From Allopusillimonas soli (GTDB lineage: Bacteria > Pseudomonadota > Gammaproteobacteria > Burkholderiales > Burkholderiaceae_B), in the NCBI RefSeq assembly GCF_004153445.1, contig NZ_SDQC01000002.1, positions 124,001 to 188,000 on the forward strand: a stretch of 64,000 nt of DNA. The letters are read 5' to 3'. The translations under genes and the position numbers were made by a program. Of the stretch, positions 592 through 17,259 are shown one piece after another (the stretch's first letter is position 1; each line of letters begins with the position of its first letter). The notes beneath the pieces are model-generated. The model made no database searches. It was given only the letters and a program-made list of their open reading frames with translations, and was not told where the DNA came from.

Positions 592-1497
592 ATGGAATTA
601 CGTCATTTGCGCTACTTTCTGATGCTTGCGGAGACTTTGCATTTTGGCCGGGCGGCAAGCCGGCTGGGTATCGCGCAGCCCCCCTTGTCGCGCCAGATAC
701 GTGACCTGGAGGACCAGGTAGGCGCGGCGTTGTTCTACAGAAGCGCGCGTGGCGTGTCCCTCACGGAAGCTGGAGTTGCGTTTGCACAGCGTGCCGCACA
801 GATAGTCAGCGCCGCCGATGAGGCGATCTTCGAGGCGCGCGAAGCGGGGCAGGGCCGGACAGGCCGCATAGTGATCGGTTTTGTTCATTCCCTGGCGTAC
901 TCCCTGCTGCCCAGTGTGCTGCCGGGATTCCGCCGTAAACATCCTGGCATTGCCGTGTCCTTGCGCGAGGTCACTGTGGCCGACAAAGAAAGTGCATTGC
1001 TTTCCGGATCCATCGACAGCGGCATCTACCGGCCCCCTGTAAGGCACCCCGAGATTGCCACCTTGCCCGTATTCGAGGAAGGTTTTGTTCTGGCGCTGCC
1101 GAGCAGCCATCGGCTGGCGCGCAAGCGGCGTGTACCGGTGCGCAGCCTGCGCGATGAGCCATTGATTCTCTTTCGCGCTTTGCGCGGCGACGTGGGCTTG
1201 CATGGCACCATCGCGGCTTTCCTGCGTGCTCACGACGTGCCGGTCAAGGCGTGCGAGGAGGTTGGTACCATTCATGCGGGCATGGGTCTGGTACTGGCCG
1301 GCGTGGGCGTATGCATTATTCCCGAGACCTCGCGCATGGTGCACATAGACGGGGTGGTTACCCGGCCATTCATCGAGCCCACCACGCGGGTAAGCTCCAC
1401 CATTTGCTGGCGCCATCAGGAAACCAGCCACAGCGTCGAAGCCTGGGTGCGGCACGTGCGCGAACTGGCCCTGGCTGGCGGGAGCGCCGCTCGCTAA
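592..1497 (+). CDS. LysR-family transcriptional regulator
   Basis: 301 residues, the usual LTTR length. The N-terminal winged HTH is plain (ELRHLRYFLMLAE, then AASRLGIAQPPLSRQI), and the rest is a two-lobe effector-binding domain. The N-terminus resembles the BenM/CatM branch, which often responds to aromatic-acid intermediates; that is family knowledge, not proof here. It is divergent from the SDR at 508 (83-bp spacer) and convergent with the Bug receptor gene ending at 1524. Likely targets are the SDR and perhaps the receptor operon. I found no convincing T-N11-A operator in the spacer. Confidence 0.93.
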   Translation: MELRHLRYFLMLAETLHFGRAASRLGIAQPPLSRQIRDLEDQVGAALFYRSARGVSLTEAGVAFAQRAAQIVSAADEAIFEAREAGQGRTGRIVIGFVHSLAYSLLPSVLPGFRRKHPGIAVSLREVTVADKESALLSGSIDSGIYRPPVRHPEIATLPVFEEGFVLALPSSHRLARKRRVPVRSLRDEPLILFRALRGDVGLHGTIAAFLRAHDVPVKACEEVGTIHAGMGLVLAGVGVCIIPETSRMVHIDGVVTRPFIEPTTRVSSTICWRHQETSHSVEAWVRHVRELALAGGSAAR

Positions 1498-1523
1498 TGC
1501 ATTGAGCGCCCCGCCGGCCTGGA

Positions 1524-2507
1524 TCAAGGCTTGACGATATGCGCTGTCTCGATAACCTTGGCCCACTTCGCGGTGTCATCCTTCATGATCGCAGTATATT
1601 CGTCAGGTGTCGTCGTCTTTGGGGTTGCGCCCAGGTCACTCAGCTTTTTGCTGACCTCTGCGCTATGCACGATATCCTGAAGCGTCTTGTTCAGCTTCTG
1701 CACCACGTCCGCAGGGGTGCCGGCGGGCGCAAACAGGCCGAACCACGTCACCACGCTGAAGTCGGGATAGCCTGATTCCTTTACCGTAGGAATATCGGGT
1801 GCGCTCTTTTCACGCTCAGGTCCGGTAACCGCCAGCGCCCGCAGGGAGCCGTCTCGCACCATGCCTATGGCCGAAGGCATGTTGTCGAACATCACCGAGG
1901 GCCCGGTGCCGCCGACCAGGTCTATTAGCGCAGGCCCGCTGCCCTTGTATGGCACGTGCTCCATATGCAATCCCGTCGCCATGTTGAACAATTCGCCTGT
2001 CAGGTGAATGGTCGAGCCTACGCCCGAGGACGCAAAGAACACAGGCTTGGGGTTGTCTTTGACCCACGCGACGAATTCCTGCACGGTCTTGGCCGGTACT
2101 TTGTTGTTGACGACCATCAGGTTGGGCAGTGTGGCGATCAGGGATACGGGCTGGAAGTCCTTGATTGGGTCAAACGACATGTCCTTGTAGATGGAGGGGT
2201 TTACCGTCATGTTGCCGGCGGTGCCAAGCAACAGCGTGTAGCCGTCGGGCTTGGAGCGGGCAACTTGTTCCGTGCCGATATTGCCGCCGGCGCCGGCTTT
2301 GTTCTCCACGACCACCGGCTGTCCCAGCGCTGTGCCCATGTGCTGGCCAACCAGGCGCGCGATAAGATCCGTTGTGCCGCCGGCTGCATAGGGCACGATG
2401 ATGCGTATGGGTTGAGATGGATAGTCCGCGGCCAGGGCGCTGGTGCTGCCGCCCAGGGCCAGCGCCGACACAAGACAGGCTTGCGTGAACAGTTTGATGG
2501 GTTTCAT
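1524..2507 (-). CDS. Bug/TctC-family tripartite tricarboxylate transporter receptor
   Basis: 327 residues, standard for the Bug family of periplasmic solute receptors. There is a signal peptide of about 26 residues ending ALAADYPS, then family blocks IRIIVPYAAGGTTD, VVENKAGAGGNIG and RSKPDGYTLL. These proteins bind small carboxylates in the periplasm and hand them to TctA/TctB membrane partners, which are absent here. AAAGGAG sits 9 bases before the ATG. It is the last gene of a three-gene minus-strand operon after the dioxygenase and SDR, so its ligand is probably the substrate or a precursor of those enzymes. Confidence 0.93.
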   Translation of the reverse strand: MKPIKLFTQACLVSALALGGSTSALAADYPSQPIRIIVPYAAGGTTDLIARLVGQHMGTALGQPVVVENKAGAGGNIGTEQVARSKPDGYTLLLGTAGNMTVNPSIYKDMSFDPIKDFQPVSLIATLPNLMVVNNKVPAKTVQEFVAWVKDNPKPVFFASSGVGSTIHLTGELFNMATGLHMEHVPYKGSGPALIDLVGGTGPSVMFDNMPSAIGMVRDGSLRALAVTGPEREKSAPDIPTVKESGYPDFSVVTWFGLFAPAGTPADVVQKLNKTLQDIVHSAEVSKKLSDLGATPKTTTPDEYTAIMKDDTAKWAKVIETAHIVKP

Positions 2508-2567
2508 GGCATTGTCTCCTTTGGTGATCTAGTTTTGTCGTCTCGAGATTGCGGTGAAGCGGAGGTT

Positions 2568-3293
2568 TTACAGCCTTATCTGGCTGATGCTCGCACCACC
2601 GCAGACGAACAATGTCTGGCCGGTGGTGTATGCGGCATGAGGCGAAAGAAAATAATCGACGGCATGGGCGACTTCCTGTGGCGTGCCTAGCCGAGCGACA
2701 GGTATGGCTTCAACCAGCGCGCGGCTGCGCGCCAGATGGGGTGGGTTGTTGCGCTCGAACATCTCGGTTGCAACAGGTCCGGGCGCAACACAATTGACGG
2801 TAATGCCCTGCGAGGCCAGTTCCAATGCCCATGAACGCGTCAAGCCCACAAGCGCCGCCTTGGCGGCGGAGTACACACTGCCGCCGGCGCGTGCAAGCAG
2901 CGAGCGGCTGGCAATATTGACTATCCGGCCTGTGCCCGCAGCGGCCATGCCTGGCAGCACGGCCTGTGCGGCATCAATGGCAACGGCGATATTCAGGTCC
3001 AGGATACGCGATCGGGCGTCGTCGGTGATTGCGCCTAGCGGCTGCATGTGGTTGAACCCTGCGTTGTTGACCAGACGCAGAATGCCATGCAGCGAGGCGG
3101 CTTCCGCCAATACCTCACGCCGTTGCGCCGCGTCCAGCAAATCCGCCAGCAGCAACGGGCCCGGAAACGTATCGTCTCCCGACCGCGCGATGCCCAGGAC
3201 GGGCTCTCCGCGCTCGGCGAGCAACTCGGCAATGGCGCGTCCTATGCCTCGCGTGGCACCGGTAATCAGCGTGTGCCCTTGTGTCAGCTTCAT
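2568..3293 (-). CDS. SDR family oxidoreductase
   Basis: About 241 residues of a classical SDR. TGATRGIG is the nucleotide-binding motif, NNAG and NIASRS follow, and YSAAK carries the catalytic Tyr and Lys. The C-terminus VCGG is typical of FabG-like members. The ATG at 3293 overlaps the stop of the upstream dioxygenase as ATGA, which suggests translational coupling; an in-frame ATG at 3302 is an alternative. Placed between a TauD-type dioxygenase and a Bug receptor, it probably oxidises or reduces a product of the dioxygenase. The substrate is unknown. Confidence 0.92.
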   Translation of the reverse strand: MKLTQGHTLITGATRGIGRAIAELLAERGEPVLGIARSGDDTFPGPLLLADLLDAAQRREVLAEAASLHGILRLVNNAGFNHMQPLGAITDDARSRILDLNIAVAIDAAQAVLPGMAAAGTGRIVNIASRSLLARAGGSVYSAAKAALVGLTRSWALELASQGITVNCVAPGPVATEMFERNNPPHLARSRALVEAIPVARLGTPQEVAHAVDYFLSPHAAYTTGQTLFVCGGASISQIRL

Positions 3294-4138
3294 TGCGGAC
3301 ATGTGCCGGCAATCGTCATGCGATGCATTTCGCGCCGCTTGCCCTGATAATCATTGCAGGCATAGTGCATGGTGCAGCGGTTGTCCCAAAATGCCAGCGA
3401 TCCCTTGCGCCAGCGGAAGCGGCATGAAAACTCGGGCCGAGCCGCGTGCTCGTAGAGCTGATGAAGCAGCGGCAGGCTTTCCTCGCGGCTCATGCCTTCG
3501 ATCTGCCATGTGAACGGAAAATTCACATAGAGGCATTTGCGACCGGTTTCATCATGCGTGCGCACCATGGGATGCAGTGCAAGATTTTCCTTGACGTCCG
3601 CATCGGACTTGAGCCGCGTGGACCGGCCTGCATTGCGTTCGCTGATGCGCGAGGTCAGGTAGCGGTCGGAATGGTAGGCCTTGCGCCCGTCTATCATTTC
3701 CTTGAGCGGCTCGGGCAATGTGTCGTAGGCCAGGTACATATTGGCGAACAGCGTGTCGCCGCCATAGTCGGGAATCTCCCGGCCATAGAGGATCGAACCG
3801 AGCGGCGGCTCCTGCATATAGGACATATCGGTGTGCCAGGTGTCGCCGATGTTGTATTGGTCGTGTGGCTCCTTGACGACGGGCATGATGTCGGGATAGC
3901 CCTCCACATGGGCATATACAGGATTCACCACGACTTCGCCAAAGCGGCGCGTGAAGCTTCGGTGCTGTTCAGGCGTCAGCGATTGCTCGCGGAAGAAGAT
4001 GACGTTGTAATCCAGCAATGCCTGCCTGATGGACTTCACGGCTTCGTCGGAAAGCGGTTGCGCTATGTCAATGCCGAACAACTCGGCGCCACAGGAACCT
4101 GTTAGCGGTCTGATGTCCAGGCCGGCGTGCGTACCCAT
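3290..4138 (-). CDS. TauD/TfdA-family Fe(II)/2-oxoglutarate dioxygenase
   Basis: 282 residues, a normal length for this family. The iron ligands are visible as WHTD (His-x-Asp) near the first third and the His of CTMHYA near the C-terminus; the Arg of EMHRMTIAG would bind 2-oxoglutarate. Members hydroxylate taurine, phenoxyacetates or other small acids, releasing CO2 and succinate; some release sulfite or a phenol. AGGAGGAG precedes the ATG. It is first in an operon with an SDR and a Bug receptor. The adjacent three-PAS LuxR regulator and a 17-bp palindrome upstream suggest control. Substrate not determined. Confidence 0.92.
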   Translation of the reverse strand: MGTHAGLDIRPLTGSCGAELFGIDIAQPLSDEAVKSIRQALLDYNVIFFREQSLTPEQHRSFTRRFGEVVVNPVYAHVEGYPDIMPVVKEPHDQYNIGDTWHTDMSYMQEPPLGSILYGREIPDYGGDTLFANMYLAYDTLPEPLKEMIDGRKAYHSDRYLTSRISERNAGRSTRLKSDADVKENLALHPMVRTHDETGRKCLYVNFPFTWQIEGMSREESLPLLHQLYEHAARPEFSCRFRWRKGSLAFWDNRCTMHYACNDYQGKRREMHRMTIAGTCPQ

Positions 4139-6337: not shown

Positions 6338-8584
6338 TCATTTTCGTACGACGTAGACCGGGCTGGAATATATGAAGAAGCCGTCCTCCGTTGTTGCGCG
6401 CAGATAGATGGCGTTGTCCTTGCCGCGATGCAGCGGCACGCGCACGCGGTGCTTGACCCGGCGGCACTCGTTGCGGTCTGGCAGCCGGTATATCTGAAGG
6501 CGGCGCTTGATGCCACCGTTCTCGAATGTCACGGGCTCCATGCCGATCGCCCCTACATCGACCGTTTCCTTGACCAACGGTGTGTCTATCCGCAACGTAC
6601 CGTTATGCGAGGCCTGCAGAAACACATCCACACCTGCAAAACCACCTGTCGTCAGCGATTTCCATTTAAGCAGGCCCGGTTCGTCATGAGTCAGTTGCTT
6701 GTCCAGATTCCAGAAATTGATGGAGGACGGATTTTCGAAGGCGTTGTCTTCGATGCTCGCCTGGCCATCCCAGATGGTCTGCCGGCCGCGTCCGCGATAG
6801 CCTGAACCCTCCCACATGATCCGGATGCGGCGACCGAGGTCTTGCTCGCCATAGGGTCGGAAGGTTTCGTGAACGGACATGAGATTGCGTATTTCGATGT
6901 TTTCGATGGAGCCATGAGTGAGTAGTTCGAATTCGAACTCAACGCTGTCACCTTCGTATTCTGTTACGGCACCCATGTCGGCTCGGGACGCTGGCTGGCT
7001 TTTCACCTTTCCGCCCAGATTTGGATCGTCGGAAAATAATGTGGCTGGTTTGTCGAATATGACGCTCGCCGATAGATGGGCTCGACAGCCGGTGGTGGCG
7101 TAGTGCCGTCTTTGCCGCAGGCACTCGGCCAGCGATTCGCGCGAAAGATCCTCGGCCAGCAGGCAGCTCAGTCCTCCGTAGGCGCCGAATAACGACGCGC
7201 CGGGATGGCTTGCCCCATGCCGGCCCTTGTGGCCATCGCTGTTGGCCAATATGCCGACGCGATATCCTTGCTCAAAGGCATCGGCCAGTAGCCATTCGAA
7301 TGTGCCCCAGTCGGAATGGATCTCCACGGAGCGTTCGATCTGGGCATTGTGGGACATGACAATGTCCGCGTAGCGGCCGCCAATGTGAGCGAAGACGATC
7401 ACGTCCTCATTCTTTAGCGCCTCGAACAACTCGTCCGCGCTGTTTGCATCCGTATCCACGTCCGACAGGTCTTCCACCAGGGCGTGCGAGGAGCGGTGTA
7501 TGGGGCGCCCTTCGTTAAGATACATGACATTGCGATCGCCGCCCAGGCCAGTATTCCCCGACCATTCGTAGCCTGGAAAGATAACGAATTCGCCATCCTT
7601 GTTGAATTCGCGGCAAAGGCGGTTCAGGTCTTCCCAGAACGGCGTGGTGATTTGAAAATCGTTGCCCTGATGACTCATGGCGTCAAGAAAGGCGCGATCC
7701 CGGGCAAACACGATCAGATCGCGGGCGGTGTTGGTGCCTATGGTCTCCTCCGACTGCCCATGCAGATCCGCCCAGAAATGCCGGTAACGGGATTGCGCGG
7801 CAATGCGGCAGGGGTTGGATCGCGCAATGACCTCGCCCTCATGCAATATCTCGATTTCAAGATCGCCAGGCTCCGCTGCCTCCAGCCCTTCCAGCGTGCG
7901 GGCGTGCTCGCCGCGCTCCATGCGGAAAGATGCCAGCATGTGTTTAAGAGACAGATTGCTGCGCAGTGTGAACTCGCCTTGTAGCTGATCGGACGGGTTG
8001 CCCCATTTGTCTTCACCCTTGAAGCCGAGCTTGAATGGCTCACCGACGCGAATCAGTGTCGGCAGCACTGCCTTGTAGCTTACTGGCGGGCCTGCAACGA
8101 TCGCGATGGAGGGTGATTCGGGCAGCTCGACATACTCATAGGTGGCGAAGGCATCCACCAGGACCTTGAATTCGAAATGCGGTTCAACGAATGTCTGCAC
8201 CCGCATGCCCGGCGATCCTTGCCGCGTATCGCCAAAACGCACGGTAATCGTGTCTCCTTCGCGCAGGAAACCTTGCACGACGCGGATGAATAGCGTTTTG
8301 TCCCAGGGGCGTATGTTGCGCTTTCCATCGTATTGCACATCGAGCACGGCGCCGTTGGATGCTTCGATGGTTGTGTAGTTCCATCCCTTGGGATCGTCAA
8401 ACTGCGGCTTGCCCATGTCGCTGGCAAAGCGATGCACAATCTTCAGCGAGCCGGTGTCATCAATGCCGAAGAAGCCGGCGGTGTACACCAGTGTGAACGA
8501 ATGGAAGCTGCCTGCCTCGAATGCCCCGGTCGGCGAGATGCTAGCCGAGCCCATACGCTCGGGTAGATAGCGTGAATGCCCCAT
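6338..8584 (-). CDS. DUF3604 family protein (PHP-like metal hydrolase fold)
   Basis: 748 residues. The N-terminal third looks beta-rich. A PHP-like region begins near residue 270 with FWADLHGQSEE and continues with DAMSHQGND, FPGYEWSG, VFAHIGG, EIHSDWGT and ANSDGHKG. The His/Asp/Glu clusters are what one expects for a multinuclear metal site. No signal peptide is seen. The family is widespread but poorly characterised. It is the last gene of the gntR-Bug-ComA-like operon, 28 bp after the ComA-like gene, so it probably hydrolyses an intermediate of the same pathway. The product name is deliberately kept at domain level. Confidence 0.85.
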   Translation of the reverse strand: MGHSRYLPERMGSASISPTGAFEAGSFHSFTLVYTAGFFGIDDTGSLKIVHRFASDMGKPQFDDPKGWNYTTIEASNGAVLDVQYDGKRNIRPWDKTLFIRVVQGFLREGDTITVRFGDTRQGSPGMRVQTFVEPHFEFKVLVDAFATYEYVELPESPSIAIVAGPPVSYKAVLPTLIRVGEPFKLGFKGEDKWGNPSDQLQGEFTLRSNLSLKHMLASFRMERGEHARTLEGLEAAEPGDLEIEILHEGEVIARSNPCRIAAQSRYRHFWADLHGQSEETIGTNTARDLIVFARDRAFLDAMSHQGNDFQITTPFWEDLNRLCREFNKDGEFVIFPGYEWSGNTGLGGDRNVMYLNEGRPIHRSSHALVEDLSDVDTDANSADELFEALKNEDVIVFAHIGGRYADIVMSHNAQIERSVEIHSDWGTFEWLLADAFEQGYRVGILANSDGHKGRHGASHPGASLFGAYGGLSCLLAEDLSRESLAECLRQRRHYATTGCRAHLSASVIFDKPATLFSDDPNLGGKVKSQPASRADMGAVTEYEGDSVEFEFELLTHGSIENIEIRNLMSVHETFRPYGEQDLGRRIRIMWEGSGYRGRGRQTIWDGQASIEDNAFENPSSINFWNLDKQLTHDEPGLLKWKSLTTGGFAGVDVFLQASHNGTLRIDTPLVKETVDVGAIGMEPVTFENGGIKRRLQIYRLPDRNECRRVKHRVRVPLHRGKDNAIYLRATTEDGFFIYSSPVYVVRK

Positions 8585-8612
8585 GACTGTCAGGCTCCGT
8601 AATAGTGGTTAT

Positions 8613-9419
8613 TCAATGACGTGCCGCGGCGCCTGGGCCCGCAGTGCCCAGCCCGACACGGCTGGCTTCGGTATCGATCAGTGTGTCGGCGGCCACATTG
8701 GCCAGGTTCAAGTCTGGGCCCAACTCCGCGATAAGCGCCTTCTTCATGCTTTCGATATCGCAGCTGCGCACATCGGCAATCCAGGGGCCCGGCAGTTCTA
8801 TCATGACCCGCGACATATCCAGCTCGCGCTTCAGCAGCGCAATGGTGTCGCCGCGCAGCTTGCCGTGATCGACGAGCTCGGCCGCTTCAACAAGAACCAG
8901 TTCGGCGCCCGCGTCGAAGCAGTCATGCGCCTGGCTGATAAGCAGGGCTGGATCGTTGAGCGTTTCCTTGGATCCCACCTCTCCAAACACGGTCAGGCCG
9001 CTCGCGATGGCATTGCGTATCTGGTTCATGCGCTGCTCGCGCGTCAGCGGCACGGTGTTGTCCGAGATTTCGATGGTCTCGAAACCCAGCGCCAGCGCTT
9101 CCTGGTAGAAAGCGGGCAGGGCGTCTTCACCCTGCGTGGCCAGCACATACTCGTGGAACTGGCCGCCCAGAAAACTGCGAACTTGATGCTTGCGATAAAG
9201 CGCCAGTTTCGCCAGCAGCTTGTCACGCGTGTACAGGCGAGCCGTACCCGTCTTTATCTTGGCCAGGTCGGCGTACTGGCCGGCCATGTCCAACAAGTCG
9301 GCCACGTAACCCAGTGGCAGCCCATCGTCTATCATCATGGTGCGGCCATTGCGCCGGGGTTTGTCGCAGCTGCGTTGCGCCGGCAGCGGTACGAATGAAA
9401 ACGGGGCAATGTTGGACAT
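8613..9419 (-). CDS. ComA-like phosphosulfolactate synthase family protein
   Basis: 268 residues. The sequence KPRRNGRTMMIDDGLPLG, then ADLAKIKTGTARLY, FLGGQFHEYV, TIEISDNTVPL and FGEVGSK follow the block order of ComA, the (2R)-phospho-3-sulfolactate synthase that joins sulfite to phosphoenolpyruvate in coenzyme M synthesis and in Bacillus YitD. A TIM-barrel fold is expected. AAGGAG precedes the ATG. It sits 14 bp after the Bug receptor and before DUF3604, with no other coenzyme M gene in view. The true reaction may be a relative of the ComA reaction or its reverse. Family call firm, substrate uncertain. Confidence 0.82.
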   Translation of the reverse strand: MSNIAPFSFVPLPAQRSCDKPRRNGRTMMIDDGLPLGYVADLLDMAGQYADLAKIKTGTARLYTRDKLLAKLALYRKHQVRSFLGGQFHEYVLATQGEDALPAFYQEALALGFETIEISDNTVPLTREQRMNQIRNAIASGLTVFGEVGSKETLNDPALLISQAHDCFDAGAELVLVEAAELVDHGKLRGDTIALLKRELDMSRVMIELPGPWIADVRSCDIESMKKALIAELGPDLNLANVAADTLIDTEASRVGLGTAGPGAAARH

Positions 9420-9433
9420 GGCGCGGCTCCTTC

Positions 9434-10423
9434 CTATTTGTTGATTTTCACACCGGAGTCCTTGACCAGCTTGCTGTACTTGCTGGACTCCTCATTGAGG
9501 TACTGCTTGAACGCTTCGACGGTATTGCCTACCGGATCGACGCCGCGGTCTATCATGGTTTTCTTGACTTCGGGGTCGTGCAGGATTTTCGCGTACGCTT
9601 CATTGAGCACCTTGATGGCTTCAGGCGGCGTGCCGCTGGGTACGAATACACCCATCCACTGGTAGACATCCACCGCTTCCGCACCCTTGGTTTCGCTGGC
9701 TACGGGCACATCGGGCAGCCACGGCAGGCGCTTGTTGTTCATGATGGCAAGCACCTTGACCTTGCCCGCCTTCCAGTGCGGCGTAACTGGCGCCATGCCG
9801 ACGCTGGCAAGGGGAATCTGGTCCGCGAGCACGTCCGCCGTCGCGGGTGCGGCGCCTTTGTAGGGTACGTCGAGCATCTTGATGCCGGTGCTGCGTGCGA
9901 TCCAGTCCACGGCAAGATGGTGTGCGCTGCCTACGCCCGGTGTGCCGTAGCTCACAGTGCCTGGATGCGCCTTCACATAGTCAACCAGTTCGGGCACGCT
10001 GCTGGGCGGGAAAGAGGGGTGGGCGATCAGCGCGATGGGTGTCACGCCCACGAGCGTGACCGGGCTTAGGTCCTTGGCCGGGTCGTAACTCATGTCGTGG
10101 TAAAGCATGGGCGAAATGACTGTCTCGGCGGGCGAGGACATGGTCATCGTGTACCCGTCGGGGGCGGACTGCGCCACGAAATGCGTGCCTATCATGCCGT
10201 TGGCGCCGGGCTTGTTGAGCACAACGACTTGCTGGCCCAGCACGTCGGTGAGTTTGGCTGCCATGAGGCGGGCGGTGAAGTCGTGTCCGCCGCCAGGCGA
10301 GAAGGGAACAACAATGGTAAGCGTGCGGTCGGGAAATGCCGCCTGCGCGCCCGCGGAACAGAACAACAGCCCAATGCAAACAGAGGAAAATACGAGACGC
10401 AGCTTCTTGTACAGCAGTGCCAT
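9434..10423 (-). CDS. Bug/TctC-family tripartite tricarboxylate transporter receptor
   Basis: 329 residues from the ATG at 10423, chosen over one at 10450 because AAGGAGA lies at proper spacing before it and the signal peptide (MALLYKKLRL to GAQAAFPD) then begins cleanly. Family blocks are TIVVPFSPGGGHDF, VVLNKPGANGMIG and DGYTMT. It is a periplasmic binding protein with no TctA/TctB nearby. It follows the GntR regulator by about 95 bp and precedes the ComA-like gene by 14 bp, so its ligand is probably the substrate of that operon, possibly a sulfonated or phosphorylated acid; this is inference. Confidence 0.93.
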   Translation of the reverse strand: MALLYKKLRLVFSSVCIGLLFCSAGAQAAFPDRTLTIVVPFSPGGGHDFTARLMAAKLTDVLGQQVVVLNKPGANGMIGTHFVAQSAPDGYTMTMSSPAETVISPMLYHDMSYDPAKDLSPVTLVGVTPIALIAHPSFPPSSVPELVDYVKAHPGTVSYGTPGVGSAHHLAVDWIARSTGIKMLDVPYKGAAPATADVLADQIPLASVGMAPVTPHWKAGKVKVLAIMNNKRLPWLPDVPVASETKGAEAVDVYQWMGVFVPSGTPPEAIKVLNEAYAKILHDPEVKKTMIDRGVDPVGNTVEAFKQYLNEESSKYSKLVKDSGVKINK

Positions 10424-10518
10424 AATCTTCTCCTTGTCCGGACAGTGCACATGCCAGGCCTGAACTGCTTGAGCCCCAGATGTTGTGAACGGAATAAGTG
10501 GTGGTGGTGGTGGAAAGC

Positions 10519-11304
10519 TCAGGATGAGCCGATGAAATCCATGTCTAGCTCGCAGTCTGTAGGGGGAACGAACATCTTCTGGTATGAAATGGCTTGCCTA
10601 CGGGCCTTGCCCAGGATGTTGATCCTGAGCGCCCAGCTTCCTTCGGGCAACTTCATGATGGCGCCAAGACGGGCGTCCAACTGCACCACGCGCGCAGCGC
10701 CCTTGGCTTCGGTCGTGGGGTAGCCGCACTCGGCATCGAGGATTTCCTTCAGGTTGATGTCTTCCAGCCGCTCTTCGGGGATATCGAGCATGGGCTGGAA
10801 GGGCGACGCCGGCAGATAGAGCTCGCTATAGCAGTTGAAGCGCTCGTCAATGGAAATAAGCCGGTCGATGCGGATGTATCCGGCTGGATCCGGGCCGAGA
10901 TGGTCCACCCAGGGGCCCGTCCCAACGATGCCGCGTCGCAGGAAGTGGGCAAAGACGGGAAGATGCTGGCCGGTATGCGGATCTGTGAACCGGTAGTGCC
11001 ATGCTTTCTGGATGGCACTGCGTGCCTGGCCTACGAAGGTGCCTATGCCTTGCTTGCGCACCACATATCCTTCGGCTGCGAGGCCAGACAGCGCCTTCTG
11101 CGCCGTGCCGAGGCTGATGCTGAGCATGTCGCCCAGCTCGCGCTCGGGCGGCAGCTTGTCCTCGAATTGCAGCTCCCCGTCTTCAAGCGCATGAATGATG
11201 GACTGGCGCAACTGGGCATGCTTGCTAAGACCCAGGGGAGCGAGCCGGTGGAAATACCGGGAAATGGTGCTGGCAGAAGACAGCTGGGGAGACTGCTGGG
11301 ACAT
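10519..11304 (-). CDS. GntR-family (HutC/UTRA type) transcriptional regulator
   Basis: 261 residues from ATG 11304, which has CGGAG seven bases upstream; a TTG at 11325 is a weaker choice. The N-terminal winged HTH shows LPPERELGDMLSISLGTAQKAL and VVRKQGIGTFV, the hallmark of GntR proteins. The remaining ~160 residues fit a UTRA effector-binding domain of the HutC subfamily. It heads the minus-strand Bug-ComA-DUF3604 operon and probably senses a substrate or intermediate of it. A 16-bp perfect palindrome 58 bp above its start is a likely autoregulatory site. Confidence 0.9.
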   Translation of the reverse strand: MSQQSPQLSSASTISRYFHRLAPLGLSKHAQLRQSIIHALEDGELQFEDKLPPERELGDMLSISLGTAQKALSGLAAEGYVVRKQGIGTFVGQARSAIQKAWHYRFTDPHTGQHLPVFAHFLRRGIVGTGPWVDHLGPDPAGYIRIDRLISIDERFNCYSELYLPASPFQPMLDIPEERLEDINLKEILDAECGYPTTEAKGAARVVQLDARLGAIMKLPEGSWALRINILGKARRQAISYQKMFVPPTDCELDMDFIGSS

Positions 11305-11361
11305 CACACCGCTCCGTTTTTTCAATTGTGGGAAGCGTAGCAGTGCATGCTGTAAACGTCA

Positions 11362-11377
11362 ATAGCTATATAGCTAT
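11362..11377. promoter_or_regulatory. 16-bp perfect palindrome upstream of the GntR gene
   Basis: ATAGCTATATAGCTAT reads the same on both strands and lies between the stop of the IclR gene (11385) and the start of the GntR gene (11304). GntR-family operators are typically short AT-centred palindromes, so this is a good candidate for autoregulation and control of the downstream operon. Confidence 0.5.
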
Positions 11378-11384
11378 AGATTAA

Positions 11385-12209
11385 TCATGGGTCATCACAA
11401 GAAGGCATGCTGCGCGTGTATCCCAGTTCTTGGGAAAGGCTTTGTGCCGCTTCTTGCAGCGCGTCTGTGAATTGATTCGGCTCTGGCTTGTTCCATCGGA
11501 ATGAAGGAATTAAAAAGCCCAGGCTACCTACGACTACGCCTTCGCTGTCGAAGAAGGGGGCTGCAACGCCGATCGTATTTTGCGTCCGATGCGAATGCGT
11601 GACGGCATAGCCGTCATGTCGTATGGAGGCAAGCGCTGCCAGGATCTCGTTCTTGTTGGGCAACAGGCCTTCTACGGGGGAAGGGGTCTGTTCAGCTATG
11701 GCCTGATGGATTTCGGTGTCTGTCAGATGGGCGAGTATGGCTCGCGCTGTGGCGCCCCACACAAGCGTCTCGAGAGAATTCAATTGAATGTTGTATCGCA
11801 TGGGATCAGAAGGGGATCCATTGGCGGCATGAAACATCTTGAGTCGATGCCGTTCAAGCAAAGTGAGAATGGAAGTCTCATGGAACCTTTCTGATAAACC
11901 TGAGAGGTAAGGTTGGGCGAGCTTGATGTACGGCATACGGCCGCCGAGTTTGGCGGCGAAACGATACAGTTCCAAGCCTGGGTAAAACGAACCTCCCGAT
12001 TCATGCGTAAGAAAATCGTGGTCGCGTAATGTGGCCAATAGCCTGTGGACCGAGCTGCGGGGCAAGTTAAGTCGCTTCGCGAGTGTCTGCACACTCTCCC
12101 CAGGGTAGTCCGTCACATAGCGCAGTAATAACAGCACACGTTTAACTGTGCTCGTTTCTTTTGGTGAGGCTCCTGCGGATGGAGACGAGCTTGTCTGGCT
12201 TTTTGGCAT
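11385..12209 (-). CDS. IclR-family transcriptional regulator
   Basis: 274 residues. An N-terminal winged HTH (KRVLLLLRYV, SVQTLAKRLNLPRSSVHRLLATL) is followed by a GAF-like IclR effector domain with IGVAAPFFDSEG and GSLGFLIPSFRW near the C-terminus. The first 20 residues are Ser/Thr/Pro-rich and probably disordered. AAGGAA precedes the ATG. It is divergent from the SDR-MmgE/PrpD-Bug operon at 12378, and the spacer carries a perfect 19-bp palindrome typical of an IclR site. Likely a ligand-responsive repressor or activator of that operon. Confidence 0.92.
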   Translation of the reverse strand: MPKSQTSSSPSAGASPKETSTVKRVLLLLRYVTDYPGESVQTLAKRLNLPRSSVHRLLATLRDHDFLTHESGGSFYPGLELYRFAAKLGGRMPYIKLAQPYLSGLSERFHETSILTLLERHRLKMFHAANGSPSDPMRYNIQLNSLETLVWGATARAILAHLTDTEIHQAIAEQTPSPVEGLLPNKNEILAALASIRHDGYAVTHSHRTQNTIGVAAPFFDSEGVVVGSLGFLIPSFRWNKPEPNQFTDALQEAAQSLSQELGYTRSMPSCDDP

Positions 12210-12282
12210 GATTTCCTTCGTTTATTTCTTGTCGCAAGGGGTGCGCGGTGTCCTCCGAAACTTATCACAGCGCAAATCCGTA

Positions 12283-12312
12283 TTGACAGTGATCAGCTTG
12301 GTCTTCAATAAT
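12283..12312 (+). promoter_or_regulatory. Predicted sigma70 promoter of the IclR-controlled operon
   Basis: A consensus -35 box TTGACA (12283-12288) is followed after 18 bp by AATAAT (12307-12312, five of six to TATAAT). Transcription would begin near 12319, about 60 bp before the SDR ATG, with the palindrome at 12332-12350 just downstream of the start point. Confidence 0.55.
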
Positions 12313-12331
12313 TATCATTATACGATACAAT

Positions 12332-12350
12332 TGTCTCATTCAATGAGACA
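12332..12350. promoter_or_regulatory. Perfect 19-bp palindrome, likely IclR operator
   Basis: TGTCTCATT-C-AATGAGACA is a perfect 9+9 inverted repeat with a one-base centre. It lies in the IclR/SDR divergent spacer, just below the predicted start of the SDR operon, so a bound dimer would block transcription of the operon. Position and symmetry fit IclR-family sites; binding is untested. Confidence 0.6.
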
Positions 12351-12377
12351 TTAATTCAGGCTCATTGGAGGCAAAAA

Positions 12378-13130
12378 ATGGAATTAAATTTTGAAGGACG
12401 AAGTGCACTTGTTACCGGAGCCAGCCAAGGCATAGGAAAAACGGTTGCCAGAATGCTTGCGAATGCTGGCGCAAATGTAGTGGGTGTGGCCCGCCGCGTT
12501 GAACTTGTTGAGCAATTGGCTGGCCAGGTCGCTTCCGGCAAAGGGAAGATAATTCCCTTAAAGGCAAACTTTTATGATGAGGGCGCTTCGGAGGAAGTTG
12601 CTGTACAGGCGGAAAAACTGCTCGGCGGCATAGATATTCTTATGAACGTTGCGGGTGCAAGCAGGCCTTTGCAGTTTGACGCAGGCAATGAGGCTTGGCA
12701 TGAAGGAATGCTGCTTAATTTCTTTAGGATTCGTGAGCTGACTCACGCTGTTGTTCCAGGAATGCGGCGGCGACAGTTTGGCCGAATCGTGAGTTTCACC
12801 GGCACATCCGAGCCCCGTATGCTCAATGCTGCCTTTACCGCCAAAGCTGCAGTACACGTTTGGTCTAAAGGCTTGTCCAGAGAGTTGGCTTCAGATGGAA
12901 TCACCGTCAATTGTCTTCAGCCGGGCCGTATTCATAGTGAGCAGATGTCGCGGCGCTATCCAACCCCAGAAAGCGAGCAGGAGTATGCAAAGGCTGAGAT
13001 TCCTGTCGGCAGATTCGGCGAGCCTGAAGAAATTGCTTCTGTGGCGCTGTTCCTGGCGTCTGACCACGCGAGTTATGTCACGGGCACTGTAATCCCGGTG
13101 GATGGCGGCTCTAGTCGCTTCGCGTTTTGA
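12378..13130 (+). CDS. SDR family oxidoreductase
   Basis: 250 residues. TGASQGIG is the cofactor motif, NVAGASR replaces the usual NNAG (Asn-Asn changed to Asn-Val), and VSFTGTSEPR precedes the active-site region. The expected Tyr-x3-Lys is not obvious: FTAKAAV stands where YSASKAA normally is, with Phe in place of Tyr but Lys kept. That suggests altered or lost classical catalysis, although related SDRs with such changes exist. TGGAGG lies seven bases before the ATG. First gene of the IclR-controlled operon, ending directly against the MmgE/PrpD gene. Confidence 0.88.
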   Translation: MELNFEGRSALVTGASQGIGKTVARMLANAGANVVGVARRVELVEQLAGQVASGKGKIIPLKANFYDEGASEEVAVQAEKLLGGIDILMNVAGASRPLQFDAGNEAWHEGMLLNFFRIRELTHAVVPGMRRRQFGRIVSFTGTSEPRMLNAAFTAKAAVHVWSKGLSRELASDGITVNCLQPGRIHSEQMSRRYPTPESEQEYAKAEIPVGRFGEPEEIASVALFLASDHASYVTGTVIPVDGGSSRFAF

Positions 13131-14540
13131 ATGCAGGTAAATGAAATGAATAATGCGTCGCAGCGCCAAGTGACGGTGCTTGAAAAGCTGGCGGACTTTA
13201 TTCATGGCATCGCGTACACAGATTTGCCTGAGCCGGTAATAGCCAGAGCCAAGGACCTGATGGCCGATAGTTTAGGCTGTGCCTTCGGGGCGCTCAGCAG
13301 CGAGCCAGGTTCCGCAGTGATCAAGTTTGCGCAAGACTGTGGCGGCCTTGAACAATCGACGCTTATTGCTGGAACCAAAACGTCCGCACCTCTCGCTACC
13401 CTTGTTAATGGAACGCTGCTGCGATACCTGGACAACAATGATTATTACTTCGGTCGGGATCCTGCGCATCCGAGCGGCAACCTGGCTGTTGTAATGGCTG
13501 TGGCAGAACGCCAGAAAAGCAGCGGGGCGGAGCTGCTTGCAACATTAATAGCAGCGTACGAGCTACACATACGGCTGGCTGATTATGCCGGTATTCCATC
13601 GCTTTGGAAGCGTGGCTGGCATCACGGAACCAATTTGCAGTTCTCATGCGCGGCGGCAGCTGGGAAATTATCTTGGTGCGATGCTCATCGAACAGCGCAT
13701 GCAATGGCAATCGCAGCAAGTCATGGCAATACGCTTGCCCAGCTTCAGAGTGGAAAAGTCTCCATGATCAAAGCATCTGCGGAGGCATGGGTGGCGAAGG
13801 GCGCTGTGGAGGCGGCAATGCTTGCAAGCTATGGCATGACCGGGCCATTGGACCTGATGGAAGGCCGGCATGGTTGGGCCAGTGTTGTGGCTGGGGAGGT
13901 GGATGCGGCGCACTTGACCTCTCCCGTTCAGCACGGGATGTATCGAATTCTGGATGTTTGCGCTAAGCCATATCCGGTGGTGGCTACCGCGATTGCGCCC
14001 GTGGGCGCCGCAATTGAATTACATGAGAAGAATTCGTTTGATGTCGCTTGCATTGACAGGGTAATTGTGTATTTGCCGCGATTTGCATTAACCAGCCCGT
14101 CTGCTGATCCAGGTCGCCGTCATCCCACGAGCATAGAAAGCGCCCAGCACAGCTTTTATTACTGCACCGCAGTGGCGCTGCTGGATGGCGCCTGCGGCCC
14201 CGAGCAATTCACAAATAAACGAATGCAGGATGCAGCGTTGCACTCGTTGCTGGACAAGGTTGTGCTGATGGGAGATGAGAACCTTGACGCGGGTTGGCCG
14301 AGCGCAGCGGGCGCCGCAGTACACGTATGTCTGGGCGATGGGAAGGTGCATATTTGCCGCCATGATTTCCCGTTGGGCCATCCAAAGCGTCCTCTGGATG
14401 CTGCAGCCCTGGCAAAAAAATTCCTCAATTATGCAGTTCCAGTGTTGTCATCGAGCCGCGCTCACGCTTTGCTTGACGCCATCTATTGCATCGAGGATTG
14501 TCGCGATGTGCGTGAATTCACAGCGCTATTGGCTCGCTAA
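13131..14540 (+). CDS. MmgE/PrpD family protein
   Basis: 469 residues, matching the MmgE/PrpD family, which includes 2-methylcitrate dehydratase, cis-aconitate decarboxylase and iminodisuccinate epimerase. Visible landmarks are DSLGCAFGAL, GTLLRYLDNNDYYFGRDPAHPSGN (the conserved Asp/His-containing loop) and HGNTLAQLQSGK. The start at 13131 abuts the SDR stop; an ATG at 13146 is an alternative. With an SDR and Bug receptors in the operon, a role in breaking down a hydroxylated di- or tricarboxylate is likely. There is no prpB/prpC here, so classical propionate metabolism is not supported. Confidence 0.88.
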   Translation: MQVNEMNNASQRQVTVLEKLADFIHGIAYTDLPEPVIARAKDLMADSLGCAFGALSSEPGSAVIKFAQDCGGLEQSTLIAGTKTSAPLATLVNGTLLRYLDNNDYYFGRDPAHPSGNLAVVMAVAERQKSSGAELLATLIAAYELHIRLADYAGIPSLWKRGWHHGTNLQFSCAAAAGKLSWCDAHRTAHAMAIAASHGNTLAQLQSGKVSMIKASAEAWVAKGAVEAAMLASYGMTGPLDLMEGRHGWASVVAGEVDAAHLTSPVQHGMYRILDVCAKPYPVVATAIAPVGAAIELHEKNSFDVACIDRVIVYLPRFALTSPSADPGRRHPTSIESAQHSFYYCTAVALLDGACGPEQFTNKRMQDAALHSLLDKVVLMGDENLDAGWPSAAGAAVHVCLGDGKVHICRHDFPLGHPKRPLDAAALAKKFLNYAVPVLSSSRAHALLDAIYCIEDCRDVREFTALLAR

Positions 14541-14572
14541 TAAATTTCCTATAACAAATGAAGGAGACTGTA

Positions 14573-15553
14573 ATGAATCATCATTTGAGAATGCGAAGTG
14601 TCCTGGGTGTTCTGGTGGGTTTGCTCGCCTTGCCTGTGGCGGCCATTGCCGCAAGCTATCCAAGTAAGCCTATTACCATGGTTGTGCCATTTCCTCCTGG
14701 AGGGGTGGCGGATCTTATCGCACGTCCGGTTGCAGAGAGGCTTGGAAAGTTGCTGGGGCAGGCGGTAGTTGTAGAGAATAAGGGTGGGGCAACAGGCACA
14801 ATCGGCGCTGCTTATGTTGCCAACGCTACACCTGACGGATACACAATCTTGTTCGGGACCACGAATGAGATTGCTATGAGCCCGACGCTATACAAGTCAC
14901 TGCCCTACGATCCGATAAAGTCATTCAGCCCTGTGATGCCCGTGGCAGAGTTTCCGAATGTCCTGGTGGTGGCGCCGTCAACCCAGGCGAGAGACTTGCA
15001 GGCGTTCATTGATGTGGCGCATGGCCAAGGGAAAAGCGTTTCGTTTGGCTCGTCGGGTGTTGGCAGTACAAATCATTTGACTGCGGAGCTTTTTGGCGAA
15101 CAGGCTCACGTAAAAATTTTGAACGTTCCATATAAAGGCGGAGGACCTGCTCTTGTGGGTTTGATCGGCGGCCAGGTGACGGCGATGTTTGCAACTTTGC
15201 CCTCCGCAATGGGCATGATCAAAGGCGGAAAACTGCATGCAATCGCAGTAACCGGAGCGCACCGTACATCAGCGCTACCCGACATTCCCACTGCGAAAGA
15301 GTCAGGCCTACCCGATCTTGTTGTTACAACCTGGAATGGTGTGCTTGCGCCGGCAGGAACGCCAGAGCCAGTGGTCACGCGACTGCACGATGCTCTGAAA
15401 AAAATCGTTGGTGAGCCGGACGTTATGCAGAAACTTAAAGCCGTAGGCGCGGAGCCAATGACCGCGACACCAGCCGAGTTCGCCGACAGCATAAAGGCGG
15501 ATTACAAAAGATGGGCAGCAGTCATACAGAATGCGGGCATTGAGCTGAAATAA
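14573..15553 (+). CDS. Bug/TctC-family tripartite tricarboxylate transporter receptor
   Basis: 326 residues from ATG 14573, which has AAGGAG at 14561-14566; an ATG at 14558 lies before that site and is rejected. The signal peptide ends near AAIAASYPS. Blocks ITMVVPFPPGGVAD, VVENKGGATGTIG and TPDGYTILFG identify the family. It is one of two receptors in this operon, without TctA/TctB, so it must borrow a membrane partner from elsewhere or act as a sensor. The ligand is probably a carboxylate handled by the MmgE/PrpD protein. Confidence 0.93.
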   Translation: MNHHLRMRSVLGVLVGLLALPVAAIAASYPSKPITMVVPFPPGGVADLIARPVAERLGKLLGQAVVVENKGGATGTIGAAYVANATPDGYTILFGTTNEIAMSPTLYKSLPYDPIKSFSPVMPVAEFPNVLVVAPSTQARDLQAFIDVAHGQGKSVSFGSSGVGSTNHLTAELFGEQAHVKILNVPYKGGGPALVGLIGGQVTAMFATLPSAMGMIKGGKLHAIAVTGAHRTSALPDIPTAKESGLPDLVVTTWNGVLAPAGTPEPVVTRLHDALKKIVGEPDVMQKLKAVGAEPMTATPAEFADSIKADYKRWAAVIQNAGIELK

Positions 15554-15568
15554 ATAAAAGGAGACATC

Positions 15569-16276
15569 GTGGGCAGATTACTAGGGGCGGGTGCGCTTGC
15601 ACTTTGGCTGAATGTTGCGTCTGAACTGGATGATGAAACAGATGCTTGGTATGTGACAGAACACTTGCCGGATCGCGTGAATATTGGAGGGTATCTGCGT
15701 GCGCGCCGCTATCAGTCTATCGACGGAGCGCGGGAGTATCTGACGCTTTTTGAAGCGAAAACAGTAGACGATTTGGCAAGTGAAGGTTATCTCGGGCTTG
15801 TAAGCCGAATCAGTGCCCAGTCTCAGCGCATACGGGCTGGCTTCTCAGGTGTAGTGCGTAACACCTTTCGGGTGATAAGCAGCCAGGGCGAAGGTACGGG
15901 CGGTGTGATTTCCAGCTGGAGAGTGGCGCCGCGTGATATAGCGCGCCAGATGGAGATGCAGGAAATTGCGCAGTGGATGCAGGAAGTTGCTGCACATGAC
16001 AGTGTTGCTGCAGTGCATTGGCTACAAGCCCAGCCTCAAGTGCGAGCACGTATGGATTCCGTTAGAGCTGTTGGAAAAGATGACGCGTTTGCGGAGACCG
16101 TGCTTCTCGTTGAGGCGACACGGGCGTCAGTTTTGCAAAGCCTGCGAGAGCACGTTCTTTCCCCAGCGCAGATGTATCAACACGGTTGGCGCGAAGAGGC
16201 TTATGGCCTTTACGCCCTGATGTACTCCATATCAGGCGCTGACAGAAAGCACAACAAATTGGGAGACACTTCATGA
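15569..16276 (+). CDS. EthD/DUF4286-like dimeric alpha-beta barrel protein, function unknown
   Basis: 235 residues starting at GTG 15569, preceded by a strong AAAGGAG; no ATG fits better. The first ~80 residues (LWLNVASELDDETDAWYV, then HLPDRVNIGGYLRARRYQS) resemble a ferredoxin-like dimeric alpha-beta barrel as in EthD-type proteins, and a second related half may follow, since FAETVLLVEA and YALMYSISG look like barrel strands. No catalytic motif can be named. It lies between two Bug receptor genes and overlaps the second by ATGA, so it is clearly part of the operon. Confidence 0.75.
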   Translation: MGRLLGAGALALWLNVASELDDETDAWYVTEHLPDRVNIGGYLRARRYQSIDGAREYLTLFEAKTVDDLASEGYLGLVSRISAQSQRIRAGFSGVVRNTFRVISSQGEGTGGVISSWRVAPRDIARQMEMQEIAQWMQEVAAHDSVAAVHWLQAQPQVRARMDSVRAVGKDDAFAETVLLVEATRASVLQSLREHVLSPAQMYQHGWREEAYGLYALMYSISGADRKHNKLGDTS

Positions 16277-17259
16277 TCACGATTAATTTCCGGATGAAAG
16301 TTCTGATGCTCATGCTTCTGGGGGCCGCTTCAGTCAGCCTTGCCGTGCAGGCGCAGGCTGAAGGCTACCCGGACAGGCCTATCACTTGGGTTGTTCCTTA
16401 TCCGCCTGGAGGAACGACGGATACTGTGGCGCGTAATATTGCTGACGTGATGGCTCCGCTGCTCGGGACATCGATCGTTGTGGAAAACAAGGCGGGGGCT
16501 GGTGGCCAGATTGCCATGGCTTATGTGGCACGCAGCAAACCGGACGGGTACACGCTGCTCGTAAGTGATGCCAGCCTGTCGACGGCCCCAAGCTTATATA
16601 AAAGCATGCAGGTGGATCCGTTGAAGGATCTTGCTGCAGTTTCGTTATTTGTGACGGTACCCCATGTGTTGGTTGTAAATCCGGAGGTTAAGGTAGCGTC
16701 CTTGTCGGAATTGGTGGCTCTGACCAAAAAGTATCCTGGCAAGCTTGATTTCGGATCAGGGGGTGTAGGCTCGCCGTTGCATCTTGCTGGCGCAGCGCTC
16801 AAGCTGGCCGCCGGCCTGCAGTGGACACATGTGCCATACAAGGGCGCTGGCCCCGCCATTCTGGCCGCGATCAGTCATCAGGTCGATGTGGCCACGCCAT
16901 CACTGCCATCGGCCTTGCCTCAAATATCGGCGGGAAAGCTCCGTGCTTTGGCTGTAACAAGTCCAGCACGTATTTCTGTATTGCCAGACATACCGACAGT
17001 GGGCGAGCTGGGATACCCAAAGGCTACGGTTTTTGGTTGGGTGGGCCTGCATGCGCCGGCAGGTATTCCTGAGGAGGCCAACTTGTCGCTTCAGAAGGCT
17101 GCTGCTGAAGCAATGAAAAATACCGATCTCGTCGAGCGCTTGCGATCTCTTGGGGCTGACATTACATACAAGAGCAGTGACGCTTATGCCAAACTGGTTT
17201 CAGACGAAGCGGTTCGTTGGGATGGCGTCGTCAAGAGATTGGGGCTTACGCCACAATAA
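16273..17259 (+). CDS. Bug/TctC-family tripartite tricarboxylate transporter receptor
   Basis: 328 residues, starting in a 4-bp ATGA overlap with the previous gene. The signal peptide ends near VQAQAEGYPD. Blocks ITWVVPYPPGGTTD, VVENKAGAGGQIA and SKPDGYTLLV mark the family. It is the second receptor of the IclR-controlled operon and the last gene before a hairpin terminator. Its sequence differs enough from the other receptor that two different ligands, or two affinities, are likely. Confidence 0.93.
   Translation: MITINFRMKVLMLMLLGAASVSLAVQAQAEGYPDRPITWVVPYPPGGTTDTVARNIADVMAPLLGTSIVVENKAGAGGQIAMAYVARSKPDGYTLLVSDASLSTAPSLYKSMQVDPLKDLAAVSLFVTVPHVLVVNPEVKVASLSELVALTKKYPGKLDFGSGGVGSPLHLAGAALKLAAGLQWTHVPYKGAGPAILAAISHQVDVATPSLPSALPQISAGKLRALAVTSPARISVLPDIPTVGELGYPKATVFGWVGLHAPAGIPEEANLSLQKAAAEAMKNTDLVERLRSLGADITYKSSDAYAKLVSDEAVRWDGVVKRLGLTPQ

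Follow-up and report, generated by a model that had tools for sequence, protein, structure and literature searches.

ComA of M. jannaschii (structure 1qwg) and YitD of B. subtilis (1u83) belong to PF02679, a family of TIM-barrel proteins with a set of conserved core residues. ComA, phosphosulfolactate synthase, joins phosphoenolpyruvate (PEP) and sulfite. A bacterial member of the family is encoded on a plasmid of Xanthobacter autotrophicus Py2, near a 2-hydroxypropyl-CoM lyase, and is presumably part of the coenzyme M (CoM) pathway. Sulfite also arises in catabolism: the SlcC/ComC-SuyAB-TauE route takes sulfolactate to pyruvate and sulfite (PMC12421959, section 6), and neither ComA-like nor DUF3604 proteins are named in that section. 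The locus described here lies in a 64,000-nucleotide stretch of Allopusillimonas soli (NZ_SDQC01000002.1, positions 124,001 to 188,000), called the window below. Four genes encode a GntR-type regulator, a Bug/TctC periplasmic receptor, a ComA-family protein and a DUF3604-like protein. The cluster is tentatively read, at somewhat less than an even chance, as a GntR-controlled accessory module that serves to catabolise a natural, sulfolactate-class organosulfonate.

The closest relatives of the cluster are found in a metagenome-assembled genome of Candidimonas sp. (G065; L017 and L030, which are one contig) and in genome G041 (L018). Among the 151 genomes drawn from the family, these two and the window's own are the only ones with a ComA protein at about 80% identity or more. 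In both relatives genes for SuyA-like (93 amino acids), SuyB-like (389 amino acids), ABC transporter-like, SlcC-like (a D-2-hydroxyacid dehydrogenase), ComC-like (an Ldh_2 dehydrogenase) and TauE-like (TauE/SafE; PF01925, 99.4 bits) proteins lie divergent to gntR-bug-comA-DUF3604, a set like that of the sulfolactate degradation cluster; L018 has one extra open reading frame (ORF) between gntR and suyA. The GntR orthologues of L017, L018 and L031 are 68-71% identical to that of the window, and the Bug orthologues of L017 and L018 67-71%. In L031 (C. nitroreducens) the sulfolactate-type set stands with DUF3604 and no comA, while L095 has the order SuyA-SuyB-SdhB-like-TauE-ComA-DUF3604-Bug, with small ORFs interspersed. 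SuyB of at least 80% identity occurs near DUF3604 in L017/L030, L018, L031, L046, L059 and L095. The SuyB of L030 is 83.5% identical to a UxaA-family protein encoded beside hpsN/hpsO and a receptor of the tripartite tricarboxylate transporter (TTT) type on a plasmid of Cupriavidus pinatubonensis, an organism that degrades 2,3-dihydroxypropane-1-sulfonate (DHPS) via sulfolactate. The ComC-like proteins have L-sulfolactate dehydrogenase as their best NCBIfam match (243.6 and 248.9 bits, below the cut-off of 500). Since the closest relatives adjoin sulfolactate-type genes, the module probably helps to break down a natural sulfonate, and the sulfonate link of the cluster is moderately supported. 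The original prediction had proposed a route for a sulfo- or phospho-carboxylate; the sulfo-carboxylate is the best-supported context, and the phospho-substrate is spoken against by the loss of a loop described below.

SuyB is also encoded together with the ComA-like protein at the level of genomes. In a draw of 399 genomes from the order, six carry a ComA-like gene at E ≤ 1e-30, and five of these have SuyB (E ≤ 1e-150) against a background of 68/399 (hypergeometric p = 6.6e-4). The family draw gave 4/5 ComA carriers against 44/151 (p = 0.026), and SuyB in 5/7 DUF3604 carriers (p = 0.023; in G134 both are distant); at the loose cut-off of E ≤ 0.001 SuyB was present in 7/12 ComA-family carriers. 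The tests treat genomes as independent, so these p-values are optimistic. In both draws the window's own genome is the one ComA-like carrier (E ≤ 1e-30) that lacks SuyB. It supplied the queries and was counted in the draws; this disfavours the SuyB overlap and favours that between DUF3604 and ComA, which comprises three genomes (p = 6e-4, window genome included). At the level of loci, a scan seeded with DUF3604 confirmed 125, of which 80 were kept. Ten of these 80 have one or more of SuyA, SuyB, TauE, ComC and SlcC, at set identities, within 10 kb, and five of the ten also have ComA (Fisher p = 0.024). The five are L030, L053, L060, L088 and L095; L053 and L088, on short contigs, have TauE alone. 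Some contigs of the scan are short, and all counts of loci lacking a neighbour refer to stored DNA within 10 kb.

The AlphaFold model of the ComA-like protein (pLDDT 88.7) is a TIM barrel. With Foldseek against the PDB its best match is 1qwg (E 1.6e-20, TMq 0.80); the other top matches are 9cm1, from a designed particle with a chain called phosphosulfolactate synthase, and 1u83. Against NCBIfam TIGR03849 (arch_ComA) the protein scores 146.7 bits, under the cut-off of 280, a weak test since the model is archaeal. Residues were compared with three references, M. jannaschii ComA, B. subtilis YitD and Xanthobacter ComA, for a subfamily of 24 members from which L017 (duplicate of L030) and L029 (partial) were left out. 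In M. jannaschii numbering, D20, D40, K43, G74, G75, E79, E103, S105, E133, K137, E168, E171, E205, N227, E237 and R240 are kept in 24/24. R170 and S172-G177, the R-ESGxGxG loop present in 3/3 references, are absent from 24/24 (and from 20/20 in an earlier comparison of a smaller set). Further substitutions relative to the references are T76 to Q, G107 to N, and A206 to L with an inserted GPWI stretch. A FastTree phylogeny parts the subfamily from other ComA relatives with a local support of 0.998.

The original prediction had asked whether the sulfite/PEP site survives, and the answer is divided: the core residues, among them K137, E103, S105, E133, E168, E205 and R240, persist, and the loop is gone. 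This glycine-rich, arginine-bearing loop may be the phosphate grip for PEP. Because it is absent throughout the subfamily, the protein is unlikely to be a phosphosulfolactate synthase that uses PEP; judged from its residues, the loss speaks against a phospho-substrate, and 'ComA-family variant' is the description that fits the protein best. It also differs from M. jannaschii ComA and YitD in its setting, which is that of GntR, Bug and DUF3604 genes and not of coenzyme M biosynthesis, and from the Xanthobacter plasmid protein, which is 32% identical and keeps the loop. Coenzyme M biosynthesis was weighed as the explanation of the window and rejected because the reference loop is missing and the relatives adjoin catabolic genes; the different neighbourhood of the Xanthobacter gene also counted.

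The DUF3604-like protein is assigned less firmly. Its match to PF12228, above the gathering cut-off, is best over residues 264-364, about 100 of 591 profile positions, and an NCBIfam scan gave no match. From the low score and the short best stretch it is taken as a divergent DUF3604, an assignment weaker than those of the other three genes; the annotation DUF3604 domain-containing protein is, however, carried by several of its homologues on plasmids. In the model (pLDDT 90.3) beta-rich N- and C-terminal parts flank a central alpha/beta part (about 264-510). Among the best 50 Foldseek matches listed, only beta-sandwich types appear, with TM of about 0.1. The central part holds the residues that are invariant in 46 sequences, H275, Q277, H305, E340, H400, E421, H423, D450 and H452; when the set is widened to 53 sequences, Q277, H305 and H423 are no longer fully invariant, though nearly so. 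The metal ligands of PHP enzymes follow the pattern H-x-H, H, E, H, D-x-H, and H275-x-Q277, H305, E340, H400 and D450-x-H452 come close to it, with Gln replacing the second His. Inspection by eye shows no signal peptide, and a full-text literature search of limited scope found no function described for DUF3604. Two related genes, in L095 (5688-7803) and G092 (C1:1868001-1870246), have the frame in two pieces, through a frameshift or a sequencing error. Hypothetical proteins encoded on several Klebsiella pneumoniae plasmids (H43, H47-H50) share about 28% identity with the DUF3604-like protein.

Sulfatases appear where DUF3604 is missing. In four genomes (G749, G573, G686 and G643; ComA 58-72% identical), sulfatase-family genes with C-x-P-x-R sites, seen by eye, adjoin ComA, and a Bug gene is found within 2.5 kb in three of the four. 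Five of these sulfatases, when scanned, matched choline-sulfatase and arylsulfatase models below cut-off. This arrangement suggests that DUF3604 may hydrolyse an ester-type bond, either ahead of the ComA-like step or together with it. More distant loci (L019 and L020; ComA 37%) have weak sulfatase matches nearby (25-31%), and an arylsulfatase-like gene occurs in 9/80 DUF3604 loci. An alternative partner set is seen in L126 (10.0-14.7 kb), L130 (1.7-6.4 kb), L127 and L128, where a ComA-like gene without DUF3604 is accompanied by one or two C-x-P-x-R sulfatase-family genes (choline-sulfatase/arylsulfatase-like) and, in 3/4, by a close Bug gene.

Among the 80 DUF3604 loci, fumarase occurs in 6, the succinate dehydrogenase (SDH) flavoprotein in 7, the SDH iron-sulfur protein in 10 and aconitase X (AcnX) in 7. 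Class-I fumarase and SDH-like genes stand beside DUF3604 in L046, L055, L059, L060, L087, L100 and L115, with SuyB or TauE nearby in 4/7, and AcnX lies within 10 kb in L051, L060, L069, L080, L087, L101 and L109. A C4 sulfonate such as sulfosuccinate as the substrate is only an idea; a limited literature search turned up no genetics of sulfosuccinate catabolism. The fumarase, SDH and TauE-like genes resemble, by description only, a cluster 3 that is raised on sulfofucose and is listed with 'fumarate and tartrate metabolism' and a TauE homologue (PMC12421959).

ComA-like genes are sparsely distributed. In the family draw 12/151 genomes have a ComA-family gene at E ≤ 0.001, and DUF3604 of this kind is present in 7/151. 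In a class-wide draw of 369 genomes the window's own was the only one with a match at E ≤ 1e-30, which shows rarity only, and the four sampled genomes of the window's genus gave no ComA-family gene. Among 72,556 plasmid records, 19 hold ComA relatives and 58 DUF3604 relatives, all below 60% identity. The patchy distribution and the occurrence on plasmids are read together as the mark of an accessory, horizontally moving module. On a Chelativorans plasmid about 9 kb separate ComA from DUF3604, and transposition genes flank them on both sides. Outside Proteobacteria, a haloarchaeal plasmid of Natrinema has a single gene between ComA and TauE or thereabouts (ComA one gene from TauE) and DUF3604 at a distance of about 8 kb. 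The locus of the Natrinema halophilum plasmid (L114, 2-19 kb) also holds a putative sulfate exporter, LLM oxidoreductases, a CoA transferase and MaoC, and looks like an archaeal sulfonate pathway. In the DUF3604-seeded scan, ComA (55-80% identity) lies within 10 kb in 16/80 loci and within 3 kb in 15/80, upstream, downstream or divergent, in varied gene orders. In 53/80 a Bug gene lies no more than 3 kb away, though Bug genes are frequent in many such loci. When ComA is the seed (E ≤ 1e-30; nine genomes besides the window's, family and order draws), three genomes have DUF3604 close by (G041, G065 and G843).

In the window itself, ORF calls and Pfam matches bear out the four minus-strand genes and the 14 and 28 bp gaps of the original prediction (Table 1; cut-offs are 25.2 bits for PF02679 and 20.4 bits for PF12228). 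The gaps are 28 bp between DUF3604 and ComA, 14 bp between ComA and Bug, and 68 bp between Bug and GntR. The last is counted from the GTG called as the Bug start (10450); an ATG at 10423 has the better ribosome site by eye and is the probable true start. The GntR start is taken as the ATG at 11304, and the mechanical ORF begins at a TTG (11325). The window's genome has one ComA-family gene. To one side of the cluster (592-4138) a LysR-type gene, identified by eye, is divergent to a run of Bug, short-chain dehydrogenase/reductase (SDR) and TauD genes. TauD (3290-4138; 273.9 bits against the taurine dioxygenase model NF007104, cut-off 313) is a possible second desulfonating enzyme. Upstream of the cluster (11385-17259) is a separate catabolic run of an IclR regulator, an SDR, an MmgE/PrpD-family protein and two Bug receptors.

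Table 1. Features of the gntR-bug-comA-DUF3604 cluster, in window coordinates.
Feature	Position	Strand	Basis
DUF3604-like metal hydrolase candidate, 748 aa	6338-8584	-	PF12228 33.6 bits
ComA-family TIM-barrel enzyme without R-ESGxGxG loop	8613-9419	-	PF02679 175.2 bits
Bug/TctC periplasmic solute-binding receptor	9434-10450	-	PF03401 214.2 bits
GntR/HutC-type repressor (GntR HTH + UTRA)	10519-11304	-	PF00392 56.8 bits, PF07702 29.9 bits
Palindromic operator candidate TCTATAGCTAT/ATAGCTATTGA, core AGCTATATAGCT at 11364-11375	11359-11380	.	arms 92% complementary, core recurs in related loci

The palindrome that had been assigned to the GntR gene as its own is real. Its arms (11359-11370 and 11369-11380) are 92% complementary and make up 22 bp between the end of the IclR-type gene and gntR. 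The exact 12-base core occurs once in the window, with one further place at two mismatches (4741). The scan of related loci covered one GntR cluster plus L017, L018, L068, L129 and the window, 14 loci of which 13 are distinct, and left out L052 and L062, two DUF3604 loci whose neighbouring GntR is a more remote relative (34-35%). The core is found upstream of gntR within two mismatches in 14/14 and within one mismatch in 13/14, predominantly as AGCTATATAGCT or AGCTCTATAGCT, at 14-71 bp from the gntR starts as called here; letter-shuffled upstream stretches matched in 0-2.3%. This conservation makes the palindrome a candidate operator for GntR. In eight scanned loci (L031, L067-L070, L073, L077 and L083) GntR and DUF3604 occur together with no ComA found nearby, and the regulator and DUF3604 are therefore read as the core unit, with ComA as what would be a frequent third partner.

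From these genes we infer a pathway, including its catalytic steps, their direction, the substrate and the cell location of each. In the periplasm the substrate would be bound by the Bug receptor. Within the cell a masking group of ester type would be removed by the DUF3604 metal hydrolase, which would so unmask the substrate of the ComA-like enzyme. The latter, independent of phosphate, would use the enolate chemistry of ComA to break (less likely make) a C-SO3 bond in the position beta to a carboxylate, with sulfite and a pyruvate-like acid as products; bond breaking would be the lyase direction that the original prediction had raised. In relatives the module would join SuyAB/SlcC/ComC-like enzymes and a TauE-type sulfite exporter.

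A number of observations weigh against a sulfolactate-class module. The names SuyA, SuyB and SlcC are given by analogy only: the best NCBIfam match of SuyB is galactarate dehydratase (150 of 731 bits needed) and that of SlcC phosphoglycerate dehydrogenase (283 of 454). No sulfolactate-type gene is found in 70/80 DUF3604 loci, nor in 11/16 of those with ComA. The co-occurrence numbers are small and ignore kinship, and two of the five ComA carriers of the family draw (G030 and G068; 38%) fall outside the subfamily. The window's genome, unlike the described sulfolactate cluster, has no close SuyB (best 33%) or ComC (36%); SuyA, SlcC and TauE were not searched for there. The R170-loop motif is also missing in 12/12 other divergent ComA relatives compared, and its loss is therefore not unique to this cluster. 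The pairing of ComA-like and DUF3604 genes, which the original prediction expected to be conserved, recurs in varied order and orientation and is not obligatory: 64/80 DUF3604 loci are without ComA, and DUF3604 was not found genome-wide in 6/9 other ComA-like genomes (ComA E ≤ 1e-30), four of these six being the sulfatase-type genomes.

Three other explanations have been considered. The ComA fold resembles many TIM-barrel aldolases, and the enzyme might be a lyase or aldolase for some other hydroxy- or keto-acid, with no sulfur chemistry and with sulfolactate-type neighbours that merely reflect how catabolic genes gather in islands. The Chelativorans neighbourhood, where FAH-family, SDR and amidohydrolase genes are present and none is annotated as a Suy gene, would suit such an enzyme, as would the many ComA and DUF3604 loci without sulfolactate-type genes. 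The explanation is rather unlikely; it is opposed by such genes within 10 kb in the five loci listed above and also in L018, and by the co-occurrence of SuyB with ComA-like by genome. Somewhat less likely still is an organosulfate route, in which the substrate is a sulfate (or similar) ester, DUF3604 and sulfatases are interchangeable, and the freed acid need not be a sulfonate. The sulfatase genes beside ComA, both in the four genomes that lack DUF3604 and, as weak matches, in L019 and L020, count in its favour, together with the arylsulfatase-like genes of DUF3604 loci, but it leaves the SuyAB/ComC/SlcC/TauE-like genes of the closest relatives unexplained, and the four sulfatase-type genomes themselves also encode SuyB at 78-84%.

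A true phosphosulfolactate synthase, joining PEP and sulfite to scavenge or detoxify the latter, with DUF3604 as a phosphatase in place of ComB, is improbable. Fold and most core residues agree with 1qwg and 1u83, the TauE-like genes of relatives suggest that sulfite arises, and a PHP-type hydrolase could be a phosphatase. Against this stand the loop, present in every reference and in no subfamily member, the changes at T76 and G107 with the GPWI insertion, and the low arch_ComA score.

The sulfolactate-class module stays the preferred reading, and it allows a more specific proposal for the ComA-like enzyme. If the chemistry of ComA is kept and the phosphate is lost, unphosphorylated sulfolactate is the natural analogue of ComA's product. 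Beta-elimination of sulfite from sulfolactate would then yield enolpyruvate, the SuyAB reaction carried out by another fold. The enzyme would be a second, fold-unrelated sulfo-lyase for sulfolactate-class acids, in effect a backward ComA without phosphate, paired with the first DUF3604 enzyme of definable role and, in the window's genome, replacing the missing SuyAB. This proposal, the boldest, is itself unlikely to hold.

Many plasmid ComA homologues are annotated as phosphosulfolactate synthase, and one subfamily is here set apart by the loss of a loop. It is tied to sulfolactate-type catabolism by neighbourhood and genome co-occurrence, stands under a candidate operator and has a defined partner, so that the substrates of DUF3604 and of an orphan ComA branch become directly testable, and the C3-sulfonate part of the sulfur cycle could gain a step. 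Were the sulfo-lyase reading true, a phosphate-free desulfonation route would lie hidden under a coenzyme M annotation.

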